Below are positions 25,435 to 52,978 of a DNA stretch of 64,000 bases, one piece after another (position 1 is the first letter of the stretch; the number at the start of each line of letters is the position of its first letter). Below the pieces are notes generated by a model. That model had not been told where the DNA came from. It did not search any database and saw nothing but the letters and a program-made list of their open reading frames with translations. The stretch covers positions 248,001 through 312,000 of the forward strand of contig BGKB01000037.1 of the NCBI GenBank assembly GCA_003116975.1, given 5' to 3'. Both the position numbers and the translations under genes were made by a program. The DNA is from Aurantiochytrium sp. KH105 (Eukaryota > Sar > Bigyra > Thraustochytrida > Thraustochytriidae).

Positions 25435-25744
25435 GAGAATGCAGAAGAAGTCGCAAAATTCAAAATTCAAACCCAAAGCAAGCCCGACCCGACTCGAGGC
25501 TCGCGACGCGGCGCGGCGCAGGCAGCGAGACGGACGGACAGGCCTCGGCGCGCAGGCGCGGCCGCGGCCGAGCGGGCCGGCCTGCCGGCGCCGGCGCGGG
25601 CGCTCTCCCTCCCTCCCGCCCGCCCCCGCGCCCGCCCGCGGGTCGCTCCCGCCTTCCCCCGCTCGCCCGCCCGGCCGAGCTCTCTTTTTCAGCAAGGCAG
25701 ACAGAGACAGCCAGGCGGGCAGGCAAAGGGAAAGCAGCGCGGCC

Positions 25745-28700
25745 ATGGCGCACCTGGAGCCGGCGGGCGAGGCGAAGGCCGGCGAGGACGCGCGCAGCGA
25801 GGAGGCGCAGGGGCAGGGGCAGGAGCTGGGCGGGGCCGAGGAGGCCGGCGACCCCGTGGCGCAGGACAAGCTGGATGCCCTGCGCGAGCGCCTCAGCAGC
25901 AACGCCGAGGCGTGCGCCCTTGTGAAATCGAAGGACCTGCAAGATGCCAGCCTCGGCCGCTTCCTCCGCGCACGCGACGGAGACGTGGACGCGGCCTTCG
26001 CGCAGATGCTCAACGTGCTGCGCTGGCGCCGCGAGCACAAGGTAGACCTGATTCTCGAGCGGGACTACGAGTTCGTGGCCCAGGATCGATGGGGCATGGC
26101 GTACTGGCACGGCAAGGATAACTTTGGCCGCCCCATCCTTATCATACGCGGCATCAGGCATGACCCCACGCTCTTTAGCACAGAGACCACCGTTCGCTAT
26201 CTGATCTGGAAACTCGAGACCAAGCTCACGGAGCCCGACGTGGACGATGTCGTCGTCATCTTTGACTTTATCAACATGGGCCGACACAACCTGGACATGA
26301 GACTGGTGCGCATTATGATTCCACTGCTCCTTAACTTTTACCCCGAGCGTCTCGGTGTCTGCCTCGTCTATCCGACCTTGCAAATCATGTGGATTCTCTG
26401 GAAAATGGTCTCCAAGGCCTTTGACGAAAAGACCGAAAAGAAGTTCGTCTTTGTCCGCGAGCAAAAGAGGGACAACAAGTTCCTTCGACTCATTCCCGCG
26501 GATCAGCTGCAAACGCGCTTTGGCGGCACGAGCACAGCGGAATTTGGTACCGACCTGCTCGGCCTCATTCCGCCAGACTCCCTCGTCAAGGGTGAGACAA
26601 GCGAAGGTGCAGATGACTTTGCACATCACCGGCGCCTGCAGCGCGAGATGGAGGACAACGATCCACAAAAGGGGCAAAAAATGTGGCTACTGAACGGTGA
26701 AAACCAAGGAGGAGCAGAACTAGATCTTGGTGGTGAAGATTTGCAACAGCAGGCCAAGACAAGTGGTAGTCGTGGCGCAACGGAGCGGATGCGACCGCGA
26801 GGCTTGTCGCAAGACTGCGTGGGCCCCCGCGCATTCGCATCTCTCTCCTTGGACGCTGAGAGTGGTGCCTTTGACGCAGACGTGGCAGTGCGCGAGTACG
26901 AAGGACCCATCATCGACGAGGACGATGACTTTCGCGCCTTTATGGATGCCCGAGACCAGGACATTGACAGATTCCAGGTGCGGCTCAGGTATCAAGTGTC
27001 GCACCTCTGCATGGATAGCCCCGACTCTAATTCGGATGATGCTTCGTCGACCATTAGTCCTGCGAGTGACAGCCACACGTATGGTGCCAATAACATTCAC
27101 GTGTCCATGAGCGACGTAGGTACCGTGGCAACCTCTCGGACGACGGGAGCGAAGCGCGCCAGAATCAAGCAATTCTTCCGCCGCAAGGTCTTGCGTCGCC
27201 GGTCTGATCAAACGACCAAAAAGAAGAAGAAGGAGCTTGCTGCGACATCTTCATTGGATCAGCTTTTGACCAAACCACCCAAGGACGAGTCCACGATCGC
27301 GTCTGAGATTGCCGAGGCAGCCGAGGCTGCCGCCGCTTTGCAGGCCGCGCGCGCGCAGGCTGAAGAGGACGCTCGCATTCTGTACACGAGGTTGCGCTCT
27401 ACTTCTGGTTCCACAAGCCAGCAAATGCACGAGCAACATGTCAAGGCCCAAAGCCGGCCTCGCATGGAGGGCATGGAGCATCGGTCGCTGTCGAGCTCCA
27501 ATCTCCTGCCGCAGTCCCCGTCTCGTCGTGGCGTCGGTACGCCGGGGCGAGCGACGTCTTTCCGACGCTCTCGCCGACACCGTGGTTCGCGCGAAGAAAA
27601 GGTCGCCTCGCTCGGGTTCACGCCAGACAAGATCAAGTTCGTCATGGAGGCCGGCGCTTCAATGAAGCGCGTCCCGTACGAGGATCCTGGACGCGAATGC
27701 AACACGTGGTCCCCATGCTCTGCTGCTCGCTTCATGACCCGTATCGGGCCGGACTACAAGCGCAAAAAGCTTAAGGAGCCCTCCGGTTCTGCGATTTACG
27801 ATTGCGTATGTATGGACGTCTGGTCGCTGCAGAGCAAGCGTCCGAACATTGGGAGTTACATGCAGCTTCCCACGCAGCATTCTCAATCAACCTCTGGTGC
27901 GGGACCGGGGGCACCTGACGCTGCGGCACCTCTTCCAGAGCTTTTGATTGTCAACATCATGATGCCTGGGTACCCGCCGAGCGGTCCGTTTTCCAAGAAG
28001 CGTATCGACGGACCGGGCCAGAGCATTGTCCTTTTCGCCAAACTAAGCAATTGGGCAAAGGAAAACCCCGAGGACCCCAGCGTGCAGTTGTGGAGCCGTT
28101 TCGTGCACGTCTATGATGGCGACAAGTTTCGCGAGCGACTCAAGATGATCACACGACTCGAAAACGCTGACGAGATCAATTTGGGGCGCATTGAACGCGC
28201 CCTTTTGACGAAATATAATGGAACACCCTGGCTCGTGCGGCCCGAGTACGAGTTTCACAAGGGCGAGGGTTACTTTGAGATTTGCATCGACTTTCATCGT
28301 TTCGCGTACTTTGCCCTTAGTAATGCGATGCCTGTCCTGGATCGCGTGTTCAACGCCATGATCGACTGCGCTCTCATTGTGCAGGCGGAGAAGGACCAGG
28401 AGATGCCGGAACGCGTCCTTGTGTGCGCAACACTTCGATGTTTGAACCTTAAAGAAGCCCCGGAGATTGATCTCGTCGCGCTTACCGACGAATCGAAGCG
28501 CAAGTCTTCGCGCCTCCACGGGGTTGGCACCTCCTTCATCGACCGGGATGGCCGCGTGCATAGCTTAGCTAAACATTCCCAAACGCCGACCTCCGCGCGC
28601 CGCGTAAGCGACGTCGCCGAGGGCAATGAACCAAGTCCAGAGACGAGCCCTGCAAACATTAGCAATCGTAACAAGGAGAGCTCTGTGCGGTCTGATGCTA

Positions 28701-28936
28701 CGACGTCTCGTGCTGCACCCGAAGGAAAGCATGCTCACGATAGAGCAGGACTGGCGGCATCAGGCAAGGCCACATCCGCTGGGAAGTCCTCTGGCTCGGC
28801 TCGAAAGCTTGCGCCAATGCTCATGACGTTCGTGCTTCTGACGCTCTTGGCGTTTCTTTTGGCGTCACTCTACGGCTCACCCTCGAGACCATCGCTTGTC
28901 GAGGAGGAGACGGAGGTGGTGGAGATTTCTGAATAA
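25745..28936 (+). CDS. SEC14 (CRAL-TRIO) - EDR2_C (DUF1336) fusion with C-terminal membrane anchor
   Basis: A single exon of 1063 residues. The ATG at 25745 (GGCC-ATG-G) is chosen because the upstream frame is repeat and GC-rich leader. A SEC14-type CRAL-TRIO lipid-transfer domain spans ~45-262 (R-F-L-R-A-R-D-G-D-V at its start, Y-P-E-R-L-G-V and F-D-E-K-T-E-K-K-F in the lipid gate). A disordered Ser-rich linker carries a basic K-K-K-K-K stretch. An EDR2_C/DUF1336 domain covers ~620-907 (N-T-W-S-P-C, N-I-M-M-P-G-Y-P-P, L-I-V-Q-A-E-K-D-Q-E-M-P-E-R-V-L). A single hydrophobic helix at ~1022-1043 lies near the C-terminus, as in tail-anchored proteins. It probably moves or senses phosphoinositide/sterol-type lipids at a membrane contact. 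The Pfam-style names are by recognition. Convergent with the GTPase gene. Confidence 0.92.
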   Translation: MAHLEPAGEAKAGEDARSEEAQGQGQELGGAEEAGDPVAQDKLDALRERLSSNAEACALVKSKDLQDASLGRFLRARDGDVDAAFAQMLNVLRWRREHKVDLILERDYEFVAQDRWGMAYWHGKDNFGRPILIIRGIRHDPTLFSTETTVRYLIWKLETKLTEPDVDDVVVIFDFINMGRHNLDMRLVRIMIPLLLNFYPERLGVCLVYPTLQIMWILWKMVSKAFDEKTEKKFVFVREQKRDNKFLRLIPADQLQTRFGGTSTAEFGTDLLGLIPPDSLVKGETSEGADDFAHHRRLQREMEDNDPQKGQKMWLLNGENQGGAELDLGGEDLQQQAKTSGSRGATERMRPRGLSQDCVGPRAFASLSLDAESGAFDADVAVREYEGPIIDEDDDFRAFMDARDQDIDRFQVRLRYQVSHLCMDSPDSNSDDASSTISPASDSHTYGANNIHVSMSDVGTVATSRTTGAKRARIKQFFRRKVLRRRSDQTTKKKKKELAATSSLDQLLTKPPKDESTIASEIAEAAEAAAALQAARAQAEEDARILYTRLRSTSGSTSQQMHEQHVKAQSRPRMEGMEHRSLSSSNLLPQSPSRRGVGTPGRATSFRRSRRHRGSREEKVASLGFTPDKIKFVMEAGASMKRVPYEDPGRECNTWSPCSAARFMTRIGPDYKRKKLKEPSGSAIYDCVCMDVWSLQSKRPNIGSYMQLPTQHSQSTSGAGPGAPDAAAPLPELLIVNIMMPGYPPSGPFSKKRIDGPGQSIVLFAKLSNWAKENPEDPSVQLWSRFVHVYDGDKFRERLKMITRLENADEINLGRIERALLTKYNGTPWLVRPEYEFHKGEGYFEICIDFHRFAYFALSNAMPVLDRVFNAMIDCALIVQAEKDQEMPERVLVCATLRCLNLKEAPEIDLVALTDESKRKSSRLHGVGTSFIDRDGRVHSLAKHSQTPTSARRVSDVAEGNEPSPETSPANISNRNKESSVRSDATTSRAAPEGKHAHDRAGLAASGKATSAGKSSGSARKLAPMLMTFVLLTLLAFLLASLYGSPSRPSLVEEETEVVEISE

Positions 28937-36241: not shown

Positions 36242-36319
36242 TTATTCTTGCTCTTGCTCTTGTTCTTGTTCTTGTGTTTGTTCTTGTTTGTGCTGCTCTC
36301 GTCCTGCCTGAAGTGGCAC

Positions 36320-36353
<34 letters not shown>

Positions 36354-39025
36354 AAGGTTTGGTGGTTCTCTACATGCCCTCCTGAAAGCAACGTCTTTAT
36401 GTTGCTCAAAAGCTCGTTTTGAAAGCTTGAGAGCTTTTGGTCAATAAGTGCTTCCATCATCTCCGTAGGAAATTCCTGCCCATGCAGCCTGCTAGCTTTT
36501 TCTGACGCGGAGCGAAGGTCCATGGACTCGTACAACGATCCCAACTCTCGTTGAAAGAGAGTCATGGTGATAGTGTCTCCATCCTTGACAGACGTTGCCT
36601 TTTCACCAATCGACATTGTCTCTTGTGTCCTCGATGCCATTAAGGTCTCTTCAATCATTGAGGCGTTCGTGACCCGCATTGCTTGCCCGCGCGCTACGTT
36701 ACCACGATACGTGGAACTGACGGGAGATGTATGGAGAGCGTCAGCAGCATCGCTTTGCCGCTCTGGCGCCCTGGACCGAGCGTAGTCCTTGCGCTGCACA
36801 ACTACGACATTTGCAGCCTCATCCTCGTCCTCTTCAAACCATCGCTCCGTTCCTTGGTTTGCCAGATGAGGCGAGCTCAAGTGCAAGCCATTTCTCGTCT
36901 CGACCCTCTTGGGAGAATTCACTGACAAATTAGGAATGGGCTGCGCATCGTCTCCGAGTGGAGGACCGAGCTCGGCAATTTGCTGCTGACGAAGCGCAAG
37001 GATTCTCTTGCGATCGACGTACGGACGGTGCTCCGTACGCTTTCGGTAATCATCTGTGATGGCGCTCATGCGTTCGTTGGCATAACCACGCATGAAATAA
37101 TTGATGAACTCACGATAGTCAACAGCGCCGTCTCCGTTGATGTCAAACCTCGTGAGCATGACCTCCATGAGCGACAGAGGCCCGCAGTATCCAAGTTCGC
37201 GCAAGGCCGCGAGAAATTCTCGACGACTGAGCTCATCACGACCGCACATATCGTGCTTTTTAAATATTTGCGCGACGTCAAGCCCAACACGGGCTGCGTC
37301 GGAGGCGATTTGATGCATCACCTTGCGACCAATACGCAGCCGTGTGGCATAACGAATAAAGCTCTTGCGCAGAGCAATCCAAAGAGCTGATGCGCGAATA
37401 CGCGCGTGCTCTTGCGGGAAGACCTCGAGAAGTTCCTCGAGGGTATTCTGCTGAAGACAAAGCACCTGCGCAAAGGTAAGTGCTCGTGATGGTTTCTTGT
37501 CGCGGAGTACGTCCGAGTGCACGATCATGTCAATGCCCCAAACACTTCCCCGCGTGAATATACGAGAATTACGAGCTACAACACCCCGAGTGAGGACACG
37601 GAGCTGAGGCCCCGTAATAATCTCCTGCGGTGCATAGAGCTCGTGCTCCAGAGCGATTGCAACGGAGGCGATGAACCCAAGAGATCCTTCATTAAGCCAT
37701 GGTACGCGTGCCAGCCACTCTTTGCTCACGGTGCGCGCCACCTCGCCGCGAAGCGTTGGAGACATCTTCTCCAGCAGGATAGCGTAGGTACTGTCTTGCT
37801 CCATCTGTCTTCGGGCCCGAAAGTAGCTTCGCAGGCGATGGCGCAAATCGGGTGGCATGCGCTTGGACTCCATGTAGGCGTTGAGGCGGTCCATTTGTTC
37901 TGAAAATTCAAGGTCCTGCAAGTTGAAAGCAGAAACAATCGAAGTGATACCACCAATAATGCGCGCCCAGACGAGGGCTCCAAGCAACATGGTCAAAACC
38001 GCCACAAAGCGCTCCGTCTCCGTGCCCGGGTTTGCAATATCCCCGTAACCAATTGTTGTGATGGTGGTGCTCGCCCAGTAGATGCACACCACATATTGCT
38101 CCATAGCGCCAGCATGCAAGAGATCCTCCTTGACAATCCAGGTTTCTTCGAATTTCCCGTCCGACTGCTCGAACATGGGAACGAGACGCCAAACGCATGC
38201 CATCCAGTGGACGAGAGAAAGAATAATGACGAGAAATTTGAACAGGCTGAGGCGATTGTACGTCCACTGGTCGCCGCGAAATAGATTCAAGTAGTCGAGG
38301 GTTCCCGACATGAGTTCGCTGAAACGCAGGAGCTTGCAGAATCGCAAGAGACGACCGGTCTCAAGAAGCTTGCCCGACTCCAAATCGTCTTCACTCGAAA
38401 GCGCAGCGAGATCGAGCGCGAGGCTGCCGAAGCCAGCGAGTGCATCGAAAACCATGCGCGTTCGTGCATAGCGCCAGACAATGGCGCGCTGGTCCCGCAC
38501 CCAAGCACCCGAGAGTGGATCCTCGTAGCAAACGAAGAACTGAAGGCCAAAGTCGACAATGAAGAGGAAGTCCACGGCACGATTCACCACGAACCGGGCA
38601 TCGTATTGGAGAGGGACGAAAGCAACCTCAAAGGGTGTCCAGGTTGCGGTGAGCAGGAGCGCTATGAGTATCAATCCATTCCAGCGCCGAAGTGCGGACG
38701 TTGTTGGAATGAATCGCAAGTCCACGTTGCGATAAATTTCATCAACGCGCTTTCGCACGCGCTCAATTTCGGTCTGGATCTCAATTCGTTTTTGCGTTGC
38801 GACACGTGGCGGAATCTTTCCCACCCATGATAGCTCTGATGAGCTATAGCTTTTCCTGTTGCGCTCCATAGAGCTCCCAGACTCATCTGGCAAAGGGACC
38901 ACGGAGTTTTTCCAGCTGCGCATCATGGCGTCTTTGATGTCTTTTCGCTTCTTTGATGACGACGAGTTGCCCTTGCTGGACGACATCTTGTCGGACCCGT
39001 CAATGCGTTTGCGCGAGAACTGCAT
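36242..39025 (-). CDS. CNG/EAG-family potassium channel with EF-hand and poly-Gln tail
   Basis: A single exon of 927 residues. Six membrane helices lie between ~115 and 375. S4 is weakly charged (R-L-L-R-F-C-K-L-L-R-F), and the pore carries T-T-I-T-T-I-G-Y-G-D with GYGD at 326-329, so it should pass potassium. A C-linker of the HCN/EAG/CNG type follows (M-P-P-D-L-R-H-R-L-R-S-Y-F). The next region corresponds to a cyclic-nucleotide-binding domain, but the usual phosphate-binding cassette (G-E then R-T/S-A) is degenerate, only S-R-A-L being recognisable. Then come a degenerate EF-hand (~591-602) and a canonical one, D-I-N-G-D-G-A-V-D-Y-R-E at 628-639. The C-terminus has 11 consecutive Gln encoded by CAG and a Q-E repeat. 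Calcium rather than cAMP may gate it (inference). Confidence 0.92.
36319..36354 (+). repeat. (CTG)10 tract encoding poly-Gln in the channel
   Basis: Ten CTG units on the plus strand, i.e. CAG codons on the coding strand, giving 11 Gln with the neighbouring CAA. It is followed toward the stop codon by a CAA/CAG-GAG hexamer repeat encoding Q-E. Confidence 0.93.
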
Positions 39026-41704: not shown

Positions 41705-43168
41705 ATGACCAAGATGCTCGCGATCGTGGCGACGCTGGCACTAGGCCAGGTCGCGGCGAGCGCCGCTGCAGAGGCGGCCTACTACGGTTCCGCGTACGGG
41801 TCCGTGGAGCTCGAGTGGATCAACTCGACGTGCGTCAGCGAGAAGATCGGCGACTCGTGCGATGCGTGCAGCGATGTGGCGGAAAATATGACGGCCGCGC
41901 AGGACTGCTACGAGTGCCTCGAGGGGCAGAGCGACGCTCTTCAGGACTGCACCAACGATGAAATCGTCTCTGATGCCTGCTTTCAAGAAGCCAAGGGCTG
42001 CATCATTGACGACTGCGTCTATTCCGGAGCCTCCGACATGACGACGTGCATCGACGACTGTTTTGCCAACAGCACGGGGTGCAGCGACACTGGCGCGCGG
42101 GACGACTACGAGGAGATTGAGGTCCTCAACGGCACCTGTGCAATGGACCTTGTCAACCAGTACTGCCCTATTTGCACGAGCCAAGACTCGGAGAGTGTGG
42201 CTGACTGTCTGAGCTGCATCGAAAACAACACCGAGGTGGCGCAGACTTGCGTCGACAGCGAGTACATCTCGGACGAGTGCTACCAGGAAGCTTCCTCGTG
42301 TATCTTTGACAACTGTACCGCAGAAACCTGGGACACCATCTCAGACTGTGCCGATACGTGCATCTACAGCTCGTCGTCTTGCGATATGGACTCGAACAGC
42401 ACGGAGATTGAGCGCGGCGGCACGACTTCTCAGACGTCGGTCGCAGTGGAGGCCAACGGCACGAGCTCTGAGATCTGGAATGAGACTTGTATTGAGAATA
42501 TTCTCACCGGCGACTGCTCTCTGTGCATTGAAGATGATGCCGAGGTCGGTTCCTGCATCGATTGTCTTGGCGACAACAGCGAGGAACTGTACTCGTGCCT
42601 GAACTCGGACTTCATCAATGAGACCTGCTACATTACGGCTGGTGACTGCACCATGAGCTCGTGCTCGGAAGTTTCGTGGGATAACCTCACTTCGTGCGTG
42701 AACGAGTGCATTGCTAGCACTTCTTCGTGCCCCGAGATCGAGTTTGAGGATACCATGTCCTCGGAAAAGGAGATCGACAATCTGTCGACCGACTCGAACA
42801 GCACGGCTAACTTGACCGAGTCCTCCGTCAACATGACCTGCCTTCAGGAGGCAGTTGAGCAGGACTGCAGCTCGGAGTGCATTGAGGCAGGCTCGAACTC
42901 TAGCGAGTACGCTAGCGAAGAAACACTGTACTCGAGCAACGGCTGCATGGCTTGCGTTGACGAGAGCGTTGCTGTGGACATGTGCATGCCTGCCGACTCG
43001 TCGTGCATGGCTGATCAGCTCATCCAATGCCTTGTCAGCACGTGCGGGACGGACTCTTGGGACTCGGAGTGCGGCACCACGTGCGAGGAGAACTGCGCGG
43101 GGGATTCTTACTTTTCCAGTGGCAGCGATTACTCTGCCTCGGGTGCGCGTCGTCTTCGCGGCAACTAA
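41705..43168 (+). CDS. Secreted protein with four twelve-cysteine glyco-modules (paralogue 1)
   Basis: A single exon of 487 residues. The ATG at 41705 opens a signal peptide (hydrophobic L-A-I-V-A-T-L-A-L-G, cleavage near A-S-A ~22). Four modules begin at residues 40, 142, 259 and 376, each with a sequon fused to the first cysteine (N-S-T-C, N-G-T-C, N-E-T-C, N-M-T-C). In the first three modules the gaps between the twelve cysteines are 8, 2, 9-12, 2, 10, 9, 6, 4, 10, 3 and 6 residues. The fourth is divergent, with a longer third gap. Inter-module linkers are acidic and Ser/Thr/Asn-rich. No membrane anchor or GPI signal is seen; the tail ends R-R-L-R-G-N. A disulfide-rich extracellular or cell-surface role is likely. 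I know no named family. Codon use is normal for the window. Confidence 0.88.
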   Translation: MTKMLAIVATLALGQVAASAAAEAAYYGSAYGSVELEWINSTCVSEKIGDSCDACSDVAENMTAAQDCYECLEGQSDALQDCTNDEIVSDACFQEAKGCIIDDCVYSGASDMTTCIDDCFANSTGCSDTGARDDYEEIEVLNGTCAMDLVNQYCPICTSQDSESVADCLSCIENNTEVAQTCVDSEYISDECYQEASSCIFDNCTAETWDTISDCADTCIYSSSSCDMDSNSTEIERGGTTSQTSVAVEANGTSSEIWNETCIENILTGDCSLCIEDDAEVGSCIDCLGDNSEELYSCLNSDFINETCYITAGDCTMSSCSEVSWDNLTSCVNECIASTSSCPEIEFEDTMSSEKEIDNLSTDSNSTANLTESSVNMTCLQEAVEQDCSSECIEAGSNSSEYASEETLYSSNGCMACVDESVAVDMCMPADSSCMADQLIQCLVSTCGTDSWDSECGTTCEENCAGDSYFSSGSDYSASGARRLRGN

Positions 43169-46110
43169 AGATGTGATTCGCGTTCTCCAGACATTCTTTT
43201 CTCCCCCCACCCCCAAAAAAGACAAACATCAAGTTGTCTTCGCGCCTCCAGATCAGTACTCTATATCATTAGTTCTGGCGTGTACGCAACTGTAGAACCA
43301 ACCAGCCTTTTAGAACAACTTAACCCCGGTAACTTGACTCAGGATTTGCTTTTATATAGAACTTTCTTGTTTGCATGGCTTCTTGAAGATCAGCAATTCC
43401 TAATTTTGATTCAAGCACACTTTTCAAGAGCGCACTGCAAATGCAAGAGCATGGTATGCCCCAAGGTGACGAGGTCGTGCTTGCTCGCGCGCTGCAAATG
43501 CAAAAGCATGGCATGCTCCGAGGTGACGAGGTTGTGCTCGCTCGCTTCTTGCCCATCATTCATCACAATCAAGCTCAACAGCCTGTAAATTTGATGTGGT
43601 ATGAATGTCAACTTGGTTAATGGCAAAAAGTTGAGCGAGGGATCTCTTGCAATTCAAAGCCACTGTCTGTCTGCCAGTGCTTAAGGACTCGCGCATGACG
43701 GACTAGCTTTGAAACCAAGAGAGCCATCAACCAAGTCGGACCTGAACAAAGGGTAACAATTGTCTACAAAGAGACAACTGCGCAGGTGACTGTGTCCCTG
43801 CAGGTCGGATTACCGATTCTTCCTTGGGTTAAGTTCCGACGTAAAATCCATGAGATGGGCGGTAATCGAGCAGCCAGACCGGAACATTGGCCATGGCGGT
43901 TGTAGATGCGACTGCAGCCACCGCGGGTGAACTCTATAATTGCGAGCACGGTTGGAGTGTCTTTCTTTCCAACTTTGGACCTTAACGAACAAGCCGCTGG
44001 GGCACGCGGCTCGGTCGCCGAGTGTGCTATGGCGAGGCGTTTTCCATCTCCCACCCCCCGACGACCATTTCGAGTCGTCGGGTAGTTCTCATGCACACGC
44101 TTTTGGCTATTTTAAAAGTTGTCCATCCGTAGCGGCGCGGGCCCCTTACGCGTTGGACTTTTGGCTTCCATGGAACGGCCACATGGTCGCATCTCTGGTG
44201 AAACTGGAAGAAGAGTGAAGTGCTGCGGTATGGTTTTGCCAACGCTTCCTTCGCCGAGGCTTGTCACACTCGTTTGCCGACTCTAAAATGACGTTGCGCA
44301 GGCTGGCTCGCGGCTAGGGCCAGCCTCTGCATACGGCCGCCCCGAGGTTTTCGCTTCGCTCGGCAGTTGATCACGACGGCCACATCAAGCAGTGGTGTAG
44401 TACAGCCAAGCAAAAGAGAGCCACCAGAAGGCGTGCAAATCTCGCCGCCGCTCCGCAATCTGGTTTCGTTGTTCCCACGCTGTCCTGGCGCATGGCCAGC
44501 ACCGCGATTCGATTCGCCCCGACTCGATTCGACTCAACTCGAGTCCCCTATGAACGCTCGACAGCCAGCTAGCTAGATGAATGGCCGACGTCAGCCAGCC
44601 ATGTCCGGCCCGCTGACAGCCGAGTTACGGCACGCCACCTGGGCGTTCATTCAGCTTCACGTGCACAAGCAGCCATCTCAGCCACCTTTCTATACTGTCG
44701 CGCTTCGCTGGTTGTCGACTTTCCCTGGTGGTGGCCGGTGTAGCTTGTGAACAGACGTCTGTCTGAACGAAGGGCGAGCCGCCATCGAGGCTTGCCATAA
44801 GGGTAAGGCAGCCGCGGAAAAAGCCCTGCATCCATTTCGGCCGCAAAAAACCGACGCGGCGGCCCGAACGACAAAAGCTTTCTCTATTCTTTCCGCCAGG
44901 CGGGGCCAGCGTAGATGGCCCGCTCCGCTCGCCAGGTAAGTAGTAATCTTGGCTCCATTCTTCGCCCCGCCCTCGCTGTCCGCGTTGTCCTCCTCCTCCT
45001 CCTCCTCCGCGCCGTATACTACTACATACATCTACACGACGAAGACGCCTTTCGACGGAGATAAGCCCTTCGGACAACTCACTCCTTCGGCCTCGCGATC
45101 GATGCCCGCGCGCGCGGCCACGATTCTCGCGCGCCGGGCGAGGCCGAGGCGGGGCCGGCCTGGCTGGGAGGAGCTGAGCGCGGGCCGGCGCGCGGCGGCC
45201 AGGCCCGAGGTGGGAGCGGCGCCGGGAGAGAGCGAGTTTGCGGTGCATGGCCGTCTCTCTTCCGCCGAGGCCGAGGCCGAGGCCGCTTCTCTCTCCGCCA
45301 AGGCCGCTACCGCCGCTGCCCCTGCGGCGGCGGCGCGCTTCCCCCGCCCGCGGCGGCGCAGCTTGGCTTGGCTTGGCGGGGCGGGCAGCGAGCGCATCGC
45401 GGAAGGATACCGAGACTCGTCGGAGACCGCCCGCGGTCCGGCACGATGGACGGCGGTTGCTGGGGCTGCGCGGGAGGGCGGCGGGCCAGTGTCTCACGGC
45501 GGACGGCGGCGGCGCGCGGCGCGGGGCTCCCGCCGAGGCACGGCGCGGGGGAGAGGAGAGGAGAGGAGAGGCGGGGAGAGGAGAGGAGCAAGGCGCGGAA
45601 AGGAAGGGGAGAATACGCGGTGTCAGGCGCCGCTCCGACCAGCCGCAAGCGCCGCGCTGGGCCGGTTCAGTGGCCCCCCGCAGCCAAGTTCGTTTGGCCA
45701 TAATCTCCCACAGCGCGAGCCGCGCAAGCTGTGCACGCGCGGAGAGGAGGCTCCGAGATGAGGAGGAGGAGGAGAGAGTCTTTCGCCAGCCAGCAGCAGC
45801 AGCTGCAGCTGCAGCTTCTTTGGAGTATGAGCCGGCTGGCTCGCGCTCTCTCGCGATGTCGCTCGGGTTTCCAGAAAGAGGAAGAGCCAACTCCCCACTC
45901 CCACTCTGCGCGTGAGAGCTCTAACCGCCCTCTGACTGGCGGCCGGCCGGCCAGGCAGGCAGGCAGGCAGGCAGGCTGCTTGGCGTGAGCGATGTGATAA
46001 GGCAAGCAAAACCCGAACGCAAGAGACCCGAGCTCGGGAAGTGAAGAGAAGAGCAAGGGAGGAGGGAGAGAAAAAGACGTAAGCAACCAGCCGAAAGAAG
46101 CGGAGTCACC
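43169..46110. other. Intergenic between the two cysteine-rich paralogues
   Basis: 2.9 kb. The left 1.3 kb are AT-richer and contain a 57-bp tandem duplication (43430-43543) and an 8-bp stem hairpin (44057-44082). The right 1.2 kb are extremely GC-rich, with GAGAG repeats near 45560 and a likely promoter for paralogue 2. The largest frames (421 codons minus, 225-270 codons plus at 44.6-45.9 kb) are mutually overlapping low-complexity frames. I call no gene. Confidence 0.55.
43430..43543 (+). repeat. 57-bp tandem duplication (two copies)
   Basis: Copies at 43430-43486 and 43487-43543 differ at only about six positions and share CTGCAAATGCAA and GGTGACGAGGT. The unit is 19 codons long, so a small frame crosses both, but it has no other support as a gene. 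Confidence 0.9.
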
Positions 46111-47616
46111 ATGAAGCACCAGATTGTGTGGGTCCTCGCGACCGCCGTCGCTTCGCTCGCAGCAGGAGCCGAAGCCGGCCGCGCCGGCAGTGGCGGCGGG
46201 CGAGGCGGCAACGGCGGTCGCGGCGGCGGATCGGGCCGCGGCAACCACGGTGGCGCCATTAATGCGACGTGCCTCGAGCTCGTCGATGATCTTTGCGGCG
46301 ACGCGTGCGATCTGAGCTGGGGCGCAAACGTGACCGACCTGGAGACCTGCCTCGAGTGCTTTCAGGAGAACGCGGGGGAGCTCGGAGACTGCGTCTCGGA
46401 TCAGATCGATGATCTCGAGTGCATTGTCGAGGTCCAGTCGTGCGTCGACGACTCGTGCCGTGCTTTCCCGGGCAATGGCCGCATCGCAGAATGTGCCCAA
46501 GACTGCTACCAGTCCGCCGCCTCTTGCCCGAACAAGACCATTGGGGGCCATGTCCCTGATGGCCTCAATACCTCGTGCGCGCAGGATGTTTACGATACCT
46601 GCGAGACCTGTGTCTTGGACGATCTTGACGCGGACGCTGCGGAGGAATGTCTCGCGTGCCTCGCGGAGAACGTGGACGACTTTGTCGACTGTACTGACCT
46701 CGACGTCTTCGGGTGTGCCGCCGAGACGGCCATTTGCTATGAAGACGAATGTGACGACCTCGAGGGCTTGGAGCTGGCCCAGTGCGCGCGCGCTTGCATG
46801 GCTAATGCCACGTCCTGTGATTCCAAGAACGTCGGAGGAGACTGGGGCAGCGGCCGCGGACGCGGCGGGCGCCACCTCGGCGGTTTTGGTGGCGGTTCCA
46901 AGGGCCGATTCAACGGTGGATGGCACAATCACACTGGCTTTGGCGGTCGCAACCGCACCGACTTTGATGGACATAACCACACCGACTTTGGCGGACACAA
47001 CCACACACAAGGAGGTGGACGTGGAGGCCGGCACCGTGGCCTCCGCGGCGACAAGCCAAACTTTTTCGATGTAATCACCGGCAACCACACCTTTGGCGGC
47101 AACCATACCTTTGGCGGTAACCATACCTTTGGTGGCCACCATGACGGCAACAACACCTTTCGTGGCCACCACGGCGGTAACTACACCTTTGGCGGCAACC
47201 ATACCTTTAGTGGCAACCACACTCTCGGTGGCAACCATACCTTCAGTGGCAACCACACCTTTGGCGGCCACCACGGCGGCCAGGCCGGCGGACGCGGACG
47301 CCACCTCGGCAAGCATGGCCATGGCGGGCACGGAGGCGGCTTCTCCCATCTGAACATGACGTGCATCTCCGAGATCGAGGAAACGTGCGAGGCGTGCGCG
47401 CAGGTTGGCCATTTCAACCTGACTAGCGCGGAGACGTGCATCGAATGCCTCGACGCGAACGAAGACAGCCTTGGAACGTGCGCTGAAGCCTTTGCTGACA
47501 AGCTCACGTGCAAAATCGAGGTGCAAACTTGCCTCGAAGAGACTTGCGCTGACCTCACCGGCAAGGAGCGCAGAACCTGCAAGAAGGAATGCCGCGAGAG
47601 CGCGACTTCATGCTAA
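46111..47616 (+). CDS. Secreted protein with three twelve-cysteine glyco-modules and a His/Gly/Asn sequon repeat (paralogue 2)
   Basis: A single exon of 501 residues, ATG in a CACC-ATG context. A signal peptide (cleavage near A-G-A ~20) is followed by a Gly/Arg-rich stretch. Modules start at residues 51 (N-A-T-C), 153 (N-T-S-C) and 415 (N-M-T-C). Cysteine gaps are 7, 2-3, 12-13, 2, 10, 7-9, 6, 4, 10-11, 3 and 6, the same plan as paralogue 1. Between modules 2 and 3 (about residues 270-390) lies a Gly/His/Asn-rich linker of G-G-N-H-T-F hexapeptides with 13 N-x-T sequons. It should be heavily N-glycosylated and could bind metal through its histidines (inference). The protein ends five residues after the penultimate... 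cysteine run, with Cys as the very last residue. Convergent with the methyltransferase gene, 92 bp away. Confidence 0.9.
   Translation: MKHQIVWVLATAVASLAAGAEAGRAGSGGGRGGNGGRGGGSGRGNHGGAINATCLELVDDLCGDACDLSWGANVTDLETCLECFQENAGELGDCVSDQIDDLECIVEVQSCVDDSCRAFPGNGRIAECAQDCYQSAASCPNKTIGGHVPDGLNTSCAQDVYDTCETCVLDDLDADAAEECLACLAENVDDFVDCTDLDVFGCAAETAICYEDECDDLEGLELAQCARACMANATSCDSKNVGGDWGSGRGRGGRHLGGFGGGSKGRFNGGWHNHTGFGGRNRTDFDGHNHTDFGGHNHTQGGGRGGRHRGLRGDKPNFFDVITGNHTFGGNHTFGGNHTFGGHHDGNNTFRGHHGGNYTFGGNHTFSGNHTLGGNHTFSGNHTFGGHHGGQAGGRGRHLGKHGHGGHGGGFSHLNMTCISEIEETCEACAQVGHFNLTSAETCIECLDANEDSLGTCAEAFADKLTCKIEVQTCLEETCADLTGKERRTCKKECRESATSC
47082..47270 (+). repeat. In-frame 18-bp repeat encoding G-G-N-H-T-F
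   Basis: About nine units of an 18-bp repeat (GGCAACCATACCTTTGGC type), some diverged at synonymous sites and some interrupted by H-H-G-G. Synonymous drift suggests the peptide is maintained by selection rather than a fresh slippage event. Confidence 0.85.
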
Positions 47617-49140: not shown

Positions 49141-51363
49141 ATGGCGCTCACAACGCAAGAGCTCGCAGATCTGGCCGAATGTGGAGGACCGCATCGAACA
49201 ATCCTCGCCGGTGCCATTGGCGAGCTATTCCTGGCGAATCCTGCGGCCGAGATTGTAGCCGGCAAGTCTTCAGACATTGCTGCACAGTTTCCAGACATTC
49301 TTGTGAGCCGGGACGAATGGGTGCCAACTGGCGTAAGAGGTGCCGTGATCTTTGTCGTGGACCGAGAGATGGACACCTTTTTATTCCAGATATTTGATCT
49401 TGATGGCCTTGTGCTTCGTTTCCAGTTTGAGGCATATGAAGACCTCGAGTATCAGAAACTTGAACCGCACTTTCATGCCTTCGAGCTGGATGATTGCGTC
49501 GCTGGCCTCAATTTCTCAGACGAAAAGGCAGCAAAACACTTCTCCAACAAAGTTATTGGAATCTTATCAAATTCTACGACAACACAAGCAAACGAAATAA
49601 CCAATGCGAACAACATGGATATTGTATTGGAAGCAAGTGAAAGTCTTCCGACGCGTCGCCGCGGACTTGCGACCTTGTCGCGCTCGCCACCGCTCGCGAC
49701 ACAAAGTGTGGGTGAACAAAAGATGGTCTCTTGCTCATCGCCACGTCCGGCGTCGCCTCCTGTGTCCCCGCCAACACGTCCAGCGTCTTCACCATCCTCG
49801 CCGTCTTCATCGTCTTCGATACGAACATCGGTGATCTCGAGCCTTTTCACAATGCGCGCGACTGCCAAGGCGCGCAAATCAAAAAAGCACATGTCCGCAG
49901 CAAAGACCTCAAAGGACGATGATCTCATGTTTGCCCAGTATGCAAAGAGCGAAGCAAAGGCGGAGACGATGGTCTTCCAAGTGAGTCCGCTGGCGCAGGG
50001 AAAGCCGACGCCAAGACCACTTGTGGATGCGGAAAACGCCGGGCCCAAAGACATTGGCGCGGCCACAAACGTGGTACGAACAGGCCATGTAGGTGTCAAT
50101 GCAGATGGTTCTCTCGATCTTTCGGAAATTCCTGCGGAGTGGAAACATCTCTTCCGACAGGCAGGGCTTCGCAAATCTGATTTGAGCGACCCGCACGTAA
50201 AGGATCGGATCCGCGACGCCATGGCCAGCGCAGGGATTAAAACGCGCAGTCGTACAATCACGCGCACATATAGCAGAAATCTTCACGAGGATGAGCTTTG
50301 CGATGCGCCACGTCGACCGAGCATTTCTCGCAAGTTCATGGCGGAGCAGATCCGTCTCCAACAGCAACGCGAGCAAGTCCACCTTGCCGAAGAAAAATCC
50401 AGTGATGCCGAAACAATTGCGCATCAGGCAGCTCGCGCCACAATTTCGAATGCAGTGCTCAAAGAGGAAGAACGCGAAAGTCTGCAGCCATTGAAGAAAG
50501 GAGCGGGTGCCGCCGCCGCCGCCGCCGCCGCCGCCGCCTCACGAAGGTCAAGAAAGGCATCGCGCGGCGCTTCACAGAAAAGATCGCCCAAGAATAGAGA
50601 CGTGGACAGATCGGTGACTGAGTCAAAAACAGACAGTGTAGAAGGTGATACTTTGAACCTTTCTGACGAGACTGTGACCGAGATTCTCGTATGCAAGCCG
50701 GCAACGCCAACAAGAGCGTCGCATCTTGCTGTCTTGCGTGAGATCGAAGACCGTCGCGGACGAAGGCGCGGTAGCAAAGCAGCAAAGGAGAAAGAGAAAG
50801 AGAAAGCGAAAAAGAAGGCAAAAGGGAGAGAGATGGAAGCAAAAATAAAGGAGAAGGAACAAGCGGCTCGCACGCAAAAGAGTGCGAGTCCGAGAACTAT
50901 TACGAAAGCCAAGGCGCAGCAGTCAAGCCCTGAAAGCGCTGCAGACGAGCACGAGCAACAGCGGCGCGAAGCAAAAAAGTCGCAGAGATCAAGCACAAAA
51001 GAGCCTGGCAACACCAAGGAGCCAAAGCCGATGGCAGGCTTTTTGGGCGCAATTTCACAAGGCGACTTCAAGCTGCGCAAAGTTTCCGTCAATGAAAAGG
51101 ACGAGGCCGAGAAGAAAAAGAAAGAACGCGAGGATCGTCGTCCTGCGTTTCTTCGTGAGATCGAGACGGGTGTGGTGAGTCTCCGCCGACTTAGCGAAGT
51201 GGAGGCTCTTCCTGAGCTCGACGACAAGAGCAGTGGGGTTCAAGACTCACTCCTTAGTATTCTCAAGACCTGCGTGCTGGAACGTCGAGACCACGTACGG
51301 CAAGACGAAGCCGATGCCACAAGTGTGAATGGAGACGAGTGGTCGGATGATGGCTGGGATTGA
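49141..51363 (+). CDS. WASP-family actin nucleation-promoting factor (WH1-GBD-WH2-WH2-C-A)
   Basis: A single exon of 740 residues. A WH1/EVH1 domain occupies ~15-140 (V-V-D-R-E ... F-Q-I-F-D-L-D-G ... F-H-A-F-E-L-D-D-C-V-A-G-L-N-F). A CRIB/GBD follows at ~305-352 (G-H-V-G at 315-318, then L-D-L-S-E-I-P-A-E-W-K-H-L-F), the WASP site for Rho GTPases and autoinhibition. The C-terminus has two WH2 actin-binding motifs (634-648 F-L-G-A-I-S-Q-G; 670-684 F-L-R-E-I-E-T-G), an amphipathic connector (702-719) and an acidic end with W734 and W739 (D-E-W-S-D-D-G-W-D) for Arp2/3. It should drive branched actin at membranes. Unlike animal N-WASP, there is no long polyproline segment between GBD and WH2; a short Pro/Ser stretch sits before the GBD and a K/E/Ala-rich linker with poly-Ala after it. 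Confidence 0.92.
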   Translation: MALTTQELADLAECGGPHRTILAGAIGELFLANPAAEIVAGKSSDIAAQFPDILVSRDEWVPTGVRGAVIFVVDREMDTFLFQIFDLDGLVLRFQFEAYEDLEYQKLEPHFHAFELDDCVAGLNFSDEKAAKHFSNKVIGILSNSTTTQANEITNANNMDIVLEASESLPTRRRGLATLSRSPPLATQSVGEQKMVSCSSPRPASPPVSPPTRPASSPSSPSSSSSIRTSVISSLFTMRATAKARKSKKHMSAAKTSKDDDLMFAQYAKSEAKAETMVFQVSPLAQGKPTPRPLVDAENAGPKDIGAATNVVRTGHVGVNADGSLDLSEIPAEWKHLFRQAGLRKSDLSDPHVKDRIRDAMASAGIKTRSRTITRTYSRNLHEDELCDAPRRPSISRKFMAEQIRLQQQREQVHLAEEKSSDAETIAHQAARATISNAVLKEEERESLQPLKKGAGAAAAAAAAAASRRSRKASRGASQKRSPKNRDVDRSVTESKTDSVEGDTLNLSDETVTEILVCKPATPTRASHLAVLREIEDRRGRRRGSKAAKEKEKEKAKKKAKGREMEAKIKEKEQAARTQKSASPRTITKAKAQQSSPESAADEHEQQRREAKKSQRSSTKEPGNTKEPKPMAGFLGAISQGDFKLRKVSVNEKDEAEKKKKEREDRRPAFLREIETGVVSLRRLSEVEALPELDDKSSGVQDSLLSILKTCVLERRDHVRQDEADATSVNGDEWSDDGWD
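50509..50540 (+). repeat. (GCC)n encoding poly-Ala in the WASP gene
   Basis: About ten GCC codons in a row, in the linker between GBD and the WH2 motifs. Confidence 0.9.
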
Positions 51364-51583: not shown

Positions 51584-52978
51584 TTATTCGACAACCGCGA
51601 GCGAGGGAACGGCAAAGGCGGAGGAAGTCCCGGCCGTATGCGCACCAACGGCACAGACACGACGAATGGCTTCGACAACCTTGTACGGCCCCCGACCCGC
51701 GAATCGCTCGCAAAGGGCCTCGAGCGTGGCAGAGTACTTGATCGAGTAGTCTGACCAAGCGCCGTCTTCCGTGCATGCGTTTTTGTACGCAGAGTTGGCA
51801 GCACGATGGCACTCGTACTCTTGGGGAGACTCTTCACCACGCGCCGTCAGGACGGCATCAATGTGACGCGGGTCGTCAAGAAGTTCTGCAGCAAGCTGTG
51901 CAAAGGTGGCGTCAACGGCACGGCGATGTTCGACCTCGGCCTGGAGTTGGACGGCATTCTCTTGGGTGGGTTCGCTCGCATACATGTAGAATTTGGAAAC
52001 AAGGGCGACATCGCGTGAGTCGACCTGTGAGTCGCGAGCAGCTGCAGAAATGCGCGGCAATTCACGAACAGAGCTCCCGTCCGACGCGGGAGCGCCGAGG
52101 AACTCGTCAATGGCGTCCTTGGACATGGTGGCGAGATCGCCGAAATCGAGGACGTGGCTTTTGGTGGTGGCATTTTGAACACGCGCGAATTGCTCCTCGA
52201 GCGTTTCGTCCTGACCGGGGCGCTCGGCGTCCGTGTCTTCCATCCAGTGAACGCTAAATTCGTCGCCAAGGCAGGTGTGAAGGTGCTTGCCGTTGACGAG
52301 ATCACCGGCAGGGGGGCAGTAGGTTGCAAACGATGACTCGTGGGCGTTTGCAGCCGTGACGGCCCAGACGTTGAGATGCGTGGGCAGCTTGCGGAACATG
52401 CTGCCGGATTCGCAGGCTTCCATGTAGAAGACAAGATTGCGAAACATTTTCTTGTCATGCATGCGTTGGATGGAGCGCATGAGCTGGCGCGCATGGAGCT
52501 CGCCGCGCGGGAAAGCGACAAGGTTTGGAGCACCGTGGTCGACGAAGTTGATAAAGACGTCGTCCTCGGCGGTGGACTTGAGCACTGGTCCGCCCTCGGT
52601 TTCATCTTCGTTGCCCTCAATGACGTTGAGAAACATGGTCGGCGTGACTTGATACTTGGTGTAGTCCTTCTTGCAGTCCTTGTAAACGTCAATCGCCTGG
52701 GCGCTGTCCTGGTCGTTGGGACGATTGAATAGCTGGCCAGGAAAGGGGTTCATGCGGCTGTCGGCAACATCGTCGTACATCATGGTGATGATGTGATCGT
52801 CGGGAATGCCGCGCTCGCGGAGAGAATGGTACGCGTGGCACACATCGGCGTGATGCCGGTAATTGAAATACCCGCGCGATCCGCACACCAGAATCGCCCA
52901 GCGATCAGCGTGAGTGCGTTCAACCAGAGCCGCCAACGCGGTCGCTAGGAGCGCCTGCACAACGTTGAGCTTGACCAT
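51584..52978 (-). CDS. Legumain-type (C13) asparaginyl endopeptidase
   Basis: A single exon of 464 residues. A signal peptide (L-L-A-T-A-L-A-A-L-V, cleavage ~24) precedes the mature W-A-I-L-V-C-G-S-R-G-Y-F-N-Y-R-H start. The catalytic pair is intact: His148 in N-F-V-D-H-G-A-P and Cys189 in Y-M-E-A-C-E-S-G-S-M, the same numbers as in human legumain as I recall. D-D-V in M-M-Y-D-D-V and the G-S-M-F segment are typical. It cleaves after Asn in lysosome/vacuole-like compartments and needs acid activation. The C-terminal ~130 residues, with four or more Cys, match the legumain stabilisation/prodomain. No membrane anchor is visible, which argues against a GPI8 transamidase subunit. Convergent with the WASP gene. 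Confidence 0.95.
   Translation of the reverse strand: MVKLNVVQALLATALAALVERTHADRWAILVCGSRGYFNYRHHADVCHAYHSLRERGIPDDHIITMMYDDVADSRMNPFPGQLFNRPNDQDSAQAIDVYKDCKKDYTKYQVTPTMFLNVIEGNEDETEGGPVLKSTAEDDVFINFVDHGAPNLVAFPRGELHARQLMRSIQRMHDKKMFRNLVFYMEACESGSMFRKLPTHLNVWAVTAANAHESSFATYCPPAGDLVNGKHLHTCLGDEFSVHWMEDTDAERPGQDETLEEQFARVQNATTKSHVLDFGDLATMSKDAIDEFLGAPASDGSSVRELPRISAAARDSQVDSRDVALVSKFYMYASEPTQENAVQLQAEVEHRRAVDATFAQLAAELLDDPRHIDAVLTARGEESPQEYECHRAANSAYKNACTEDGAWSDYSIKYSATLEALCERFAGRGPYKVVEAIRRVCAVGAHTAGTSSAFAVPSLAVVE

Follow-up and report, generated by a model that had tools for sequence, protein, structure and literature searches.

We describe a putative secreted module with twelve cysteines that occurs in seven copies in two neighbouring genes, here called P1 and P2, of Aurantiochytrium sp. 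KH105. This organism is a thraustochytrid, one of a group of marine single-celled relatives of diatoms. The genes lie in a 64,000-base stretch, hereafter the window, that covers positions 248001-312000 of contig C37 (BGKB01000037.1) in an assembly that totals 76.0 Mb and has 367 contigs. In every copy, an N-glycosylation sequon (N-x-S/T) stands directly before the first cysteine (Cys1) of the module, and the conservation of this sequon at low overall identity favours, as judged from the sequences, selection for a glycan. We suggest, as an interpretation with about an even chance of being correct, that P1 and P2 are adjacent paralogues encoding disulfide-clamped and N-glycosylated structural proteins, secreted to the cell coat or extracellular matrix. 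The genes, their modules and the P2 spacer are as follows, in window coordinates.

41705..43168, + strand: P1, acidic putative secreted protein, 487 amino acids, 48 Cys, four modules
41822..42082, + strand: P1 module 1, residues 40-126, NSTC, 12 Cys
42128..42382, + strand: P1 module 2, residues 142-226, NGTC, 12 Cys
42479..42730, + strand: P1 module 3, residues 259-342, NETC, 12 Cys; second NETC at Cys7 (Cys308)
42830..43096, + strand: P1 module 4, residues 376-464, NMTC, divergent spacing, 12 Cys
46111..47616, + strand: P2, putative secreted protein, 501 amino acids, 36 Cys, three modules; Gly/His/Asn-rich spacer between modules 2 and 3
46261..46527, + strand: P2 module 1, residues 51-139, NATC, 12 Cys
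46567..46818, + strand: P2 module 2, residues 153-236, NTSC, 12 Cys
46819..47352, + strand: P2 spacer, residues 237-414; 13 N-x-T sequons (N-H-T in ten), most of which lie in tandem arrays
47353..47613, + strand: P2 module 3, residues 415-501, NMTC, 12 Cys; AlphaFold mean predicted local distance difference test (pLDDT) 89.2

The twelve-cysteine module

All 84 cysteines of the two proteins partition into the seven modules. Successive cysteines of the six regular modules are separated by 7-8, 2-3, 9-13, 2, 10, 7-9, 6, 4, 10-11, 3 and 6 residues. The gaps of P1 module 4 are divergent (8, 3, 21, 2, 9, 6, 7, 4, 8, 3, 3), with the order of the twelve cysteines retained. An earlier reading of this stretch, the original prediction, had given the coordinates, the seven copies, their cysteine spacing and their sequons, and our recount, with 48 and 36 cysteines, confirmed all of these. 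Outside the shared cysteines, mean pairwise identity among the seven modules is 16.5% (range 7.4 to 26.0%) in a cysteine-anchored alignment, in which gaps inside loops were set mechanically and from which gapped columns were excluded when columns were counted. Each module holds 16-23 Asp and Glu residues, together with 0-2 Lys and Arg in six of the seven and 8 in P2 module 3. P1 is extremely acidic overall, with 96 Asp and Glu against 8 Lys and Arg after residue 20. Both proteins open with a hydrophobic, signal-peptide-like N-terminus, as judged by eye only. A search through all six reading frames of the window for at least 9 cysteines per 80 residues, with one best stretch kept per open segment, returned 14 stretches, comprising P1, P2 and others; by eye, the module pattern was absent from the others.

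A second contig, C105, carries both genes again, in unchanged order and strand, with protein identities of 98% (P1) and 97% (P2). The C105 copies probably represent the second haplotype. P1 and P2 look like real genes because both recur there with a low ratio of replacement to silent differences in their modules.

The spacer of P2 is a further concentration of potential glycan sites. Its 178 residues include 59 Gly, 26 His and 17 Asn, and its 13 sequons compare with a mean of 1.9 after shuffling, a number reached in none of 20,000 shuffles. The tandem arrays are of 18/36, 24 and 30 bases. The C105 copy of P2 is without a 16-residue stretch of the spacer, and hence has two sequons fewer. If these sequons are used, P2 would be very rich in N-glycans.

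Conservation of the sequon at the first cysteine

The motif N-x-S/T directly precedes Cys1 in 7/7 modules, compared with 1 of the 77 other cysteines (Cys308 of P1). The associated Fisher p of 1.8e-9 is to be read as descriptive, since the module copies are related by descent. When the non-cysteine residues were shuffled, N-x-S/T-C, which is observed five times in P1 and three times in P2, appeared on average 0.61 and 0.25 times, respectively, and the observed number was attained in 7 (P1) and 39 (P2) of 20,000 shuffles.

The original prediction had proposed that the sequon is under selection, and the alignment bears this out. The best conserved of the 64 gapless non-cysteine columns are the sequon Asn (7/7) and then its Thr/Ser (7/7; six Thr and one Ser), followed by three columns at 5/7 each. 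The middle residue of the sequon varies, reading S, G, E, M, A, T and M across the modules. Further, the sequon codons differ silently among copies: Asn is encoded by AAC four times and AAT three times, Thr by ACG three times, ACC twice and ACT once, and the single Ser by TCG.

In the modules, the C37 and C105 copies differ more often, per site, by silent changes than by replacements. The P1 modules differ by 3 replacement and 15 silent nucleotide changes (proportion of replacement differences, pN, 0.004; of silent differences, pS, 0.073) and the P2 modules by 12 and 13 (pN 0.019, pS 0.079). Outside the modules, P1 shows 12 replacement and 6 silent differences (pN 0.037, pS 0.060) and P2 shows 3 and 9 (pN 0.006, pS 0.054). 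The counting was simple: every change in a residue-altering codon was scored as a replacement, and gapped columns were excluded. The P1 modules are strongly constrained and the P2 modules moderately so, and neither set is fast-evolving. All seven Cys1 sequons are identical between the two contigs at every residue.

Glycan site or helix cap

Structure prediction of a module, proposed alongside the original prediction, gave all-helical models for two of them. AlphaFold2 models of P1 module 1 and P2 module 3 were built from an alignment of the six regular window modules, with P1 module 4 left out. The best mean pLDDT was 79.1 for P1 module 1 (five models, 64.1 to 79.1) and 89.2 for P2 module 3 (five models, 86.0 to 89.2). 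Helix positions are similar in the two models, and their PDB neighbours differ. Foldseek searches of the PDB with both models found no match at E (expectation value) <= 0.001, and the VIA-align scores, 5.6 and 5.1, are in the usual range for helical bundles. From these models, we infer an all-helical module fold.

The models also supply the best-surviving alternative, that what preserves the Asn and Thr/Ser ahead of Cys1 is the capping and packing of helix 1, the sequon being incidental. Helix 1 is predicted to start directly after the sequon Asn in both models (at residue 3 in P1 module 1 and residue 2 in P2 module 3). An internal comparison is offered by the column that lies seven residues before Cys4, where both models predict another helix start. 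Across the modules this column has N, D, D, T, N, D and N, the Thr belonging to a poorly aligned loop of P1 module 4. Asn and Asp are thus balanced three to three with one Thr, a mixture that capping would permit, against Asn in 7/7 and Thr/Ser in 7/7 at Cys1, although the sample is small and related. Where this column holds Asn, Thr stands at +2 in 3/3 cases; where it holds Asp, Thr/Ser stands there in 0/3. Such pairing of Asn with Thr is what would be expected if glycan sites appear and vanish as units. Because the capping column accepts Asp, but the Cys1 site has none and keeps its Thr/Ser, glycosylation is considerably likelier than helix capping to be the cause of sequon conservation at Cys1. 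We regard capping as the whole explanation as rather unlikely.

Searches for relatives

The original prediction knew of no named domain with this signature, a view that stands within Pfam, NCBIfam and the PDB, where no credible match was found; in particular, there was no strong match to a Pfam family. P1 matched no Pfam family, and P2 matched only Gly_radical (E 0.059, 14.3 bits against a cut-off of 22.2). The seven modules drew four weak Pfam families, the best at E 0.034, and none of these is credible. In NCBIfam, P1 had one match at 9.5 bits against a cut-off of 409, and P2 had none. Among PDB sequences, P1 had no match up to E 10, and a module profile gave a single chance-level row (E 5.8); the alignment behind this profile misplaces part of P1 module 4.

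Searches of the genome with P1, P2, P1 modules 2 and 4, P2 modules 2 and 3, and a consensus recovered only P1 and P2, on the same two contigs. A low-complexity match on C60 and a weak match on C57 and C77 were judged to be due to chance. These searches were six-frame, with the best candidates scored and introns not modelled, and could therefore miss a paralogue that is very divergent or split by introns. We take the family to be small and probably lineage-restricted. Contigs C57 and C77 also carry a 3,028-residue open frame (L021, L022) that is cysteine-rich, with EGF-like stretches recognised by eye in the 1,055 residues of each that were examined.

N-glycosylation machinery

The profile of STT3, the catalytic subunit of oligosaccharyltransferase, matches two places in the genome, on C104 and C113, which probably represent one locus per haplotype. 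Each of the two contigs also carries a PDI-like gene, some 6.4 kb away from STT3 (L035 and L039 on C104, and C113). In Schizochytrium, a secreted recombinant glycoprotein bears Man5-9GlcNAc2 N-glycans, according to an excerpt of PMC3634000. In mammals, cysteine-proximal sequons need one of the oxidoreductase subunits MAGT1 or TUSC3, which retain the cysteine until glycosylation has taken place (excerpts of PMC7563561 and PMC8998389), and yeast Ost3/Ost6 are orthologous to these subunits (PMC7563561, same excerpt). An Ost3/Ost6 profile matches six places in the KH105 genome, of which the three examined resemble PDI or a thioredoxin-reductase fusion.

Proposed function and alternatives

We infer that each module contains six disulfides and that P1 and P2 are secreted. 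The module of about 85 residues would then be a rigid, acidic, all-helical unit in which the twelve cysteines pair. The sequon Asn, which precedes Cys1 by three residues and sits where the first helix begins, would have to receive its N-glycan before the Cys1 disulfide closes or while it is closing. There, the glycan could mark the N-terminal edge of the module, solubilise it, aid folding control in the endoplasmic reticulum and shield it from proteolysis. Modules would be joined by flexible spacers, sequon-rich in P2, whose long spacer with up to 13 more N-glycans might separate its modules as a hydrated brush. An extracellular coat or matrix is where the proteins would most likely act.

A bolder version of this proposal makes the glycan an obligatory element: the Cys1 sequon would be glycosylated before the Cys1 disulfide forms, thereby ordering oxidative folding, and the family would build a stramenopile matrix of disulfide modules and N-glycan brushes. 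We offer it tentatively, and consider it probably too strong.

Several points weigh against a glycosylated coat protein. The seven copies share descent and all come from one genome, so the evidence of the column test, though strong, is not independent. Of the two models, that of P1 module 1 is weak, and P1 module 4 entered the alignment of neither. The predicted start of helix 1 directly after the sequon Asn means that capping may account for part of the conservation of that Asn. No Ost3/Ost6-type subunit, which in mammals serves the glycan-before-disulfide step, was recognised among three of the six matched loci, and the link to such a step is therefore hypothetical. Finally, a role in cell wall, scales or ectoplasmic net, a guess of the original prediction, is still conjectural, and the excerpted text of an Aurantiochytrium ectoplasmic-net proteome paper (PMC12221091) makes no mention of such a protein.

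Two other roles have to be considered. P1 and P2 might be secreted agents directed toward other organisms, whether effector-like, defensive or anti-predator, instead of matrix components. Small cysteine-rich secreted families frequently have roles in interactions between organisms, and the signal-like N-terminus seen by eye, the high cysteine content, the tandem gene pair and the lack of a wider family in our searches all fit such a role. However, the modules are constrained (pN/pS 0.004/0.073 in P1 and 0.019/0.079 in P2) and not fast-evolving, and the combination of several modules in one protein with a long spacer rich in sequons would seem to suit a structural role better, making this alternative unlikely. 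It is also improbable that the proteins are primarily acidic, calcium- or metal-binding extracellular proteins, in which clustered Asp/Glu carry the function, with disulfides and glycans only as stabilisers. The acidic composition of the modules would suit metal binding, as would two of the ten best conserved non-cysteine columns, which are mostly acidic (Glu in five and Asp in one of seven copies; Asp in four and Glu in one of seven). Yet no EF-hand or other metal-binding Pfam family matches them, and the sequon is better conserved than these two acidic columns.

P1 and P2 are specific candidates for the protein component, so far little understood, of the extracellular coats of thraustochytrids. 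Secreted repeats rich in cysteine are common, but a module whose strongest non-cysteine signature is a sequon fused to Cys1 would also be a natural test system for the order of N-glycosylation and disulfide formation.

Genomic surroundings

P1 and P2 are separated by 2,942 bases, and the genes around them are eukaryotic in type. Two 57-bp direct repeats with 88% matches lie immediately 3′ of P1 (window 43430-43545). About 4 kb past P2 is a gene for a legumain-type C13 peptidase (window 51584-52978, minus strand, E 5e-97). Elsewhere in the window are a protein combining a CRAL-TRIO lipid-binding domain with an EDR2 C-terminal domain (25439-28936), a WASP-like protein with WH1 and P21-Rho-binding domains (49141-51363), and, on the minus strand, a protein with an ion channel domain and EF-hand matches slightly under their cut-offs (36242-39025). 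To our knowledge, PfaA-type polyunsaturated fatty acid synthases mark thraustochytrids among eukaryotes. A PfaA-type profile matches this genome strongly, though below its cut-off (930 bits against 1010, over profile positions 6-1035 of 2582), in keeping with a thraustochytrid; it also matches 11 of 14 control genomes, none above the cut-off.

Comparison with known systems

The closest likeness by eye is to the GLG1/ESL-1 repeat (PF00839), a helical, lumenal repeat with four cysteines. A GLG1-like protein of this genome (L042) has Cys-x7-Cys and Cys-Leu-x10-Cys, where the modules have Cys-x7/8-Cys and mostly Cys-Leu-x9-Cys. The PF00839 profile covers 58 positions, against about 85 residues for the twelve-cysteine module, and it matches two places in the whole genome (C49 and C90). 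That the module is a remote member made of two fused repeats is very improbable: PF00839 matched neither P1 nor P2 at E up to 10 in the genome-wide search, nor P1, P2 or any module in the Pfam scans, and hhalign gave, from thin alignments, E 0.62 for the modules against two GLG1-like repeats and E 0.16 for the module halves against each other.

Plant DUF26/Gnk2 domains (Stress-antifung) share with P1 modules 1-3 the opening Cys-x8-Cys-x2-Cys. They differ in having an alpha/beta fold and fewer cysteines than the modules, and this family has no Pfam match in P1, P2 or the modules.

Diatom cell-wall proteins (frustulins, cingulins, silaffins and SAPs) are, like P1 and P2 in their putative placement, secreted coat proteins of stramenopiles. 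No domain common to these proteins and P1/P2 was found. R-x-L, a proposed processing site of biosilica proteins in the excerpt of PMC5647440, occurs three times in P2 and once in P1, which is not above chance.

In the position of the sequon, the modules resemble the sites handled by MAGT1 and TUSC3, in which a sequon likewise lies beside a cysteine, as the excerpt of PMC7563561 describes for mammalian cells.

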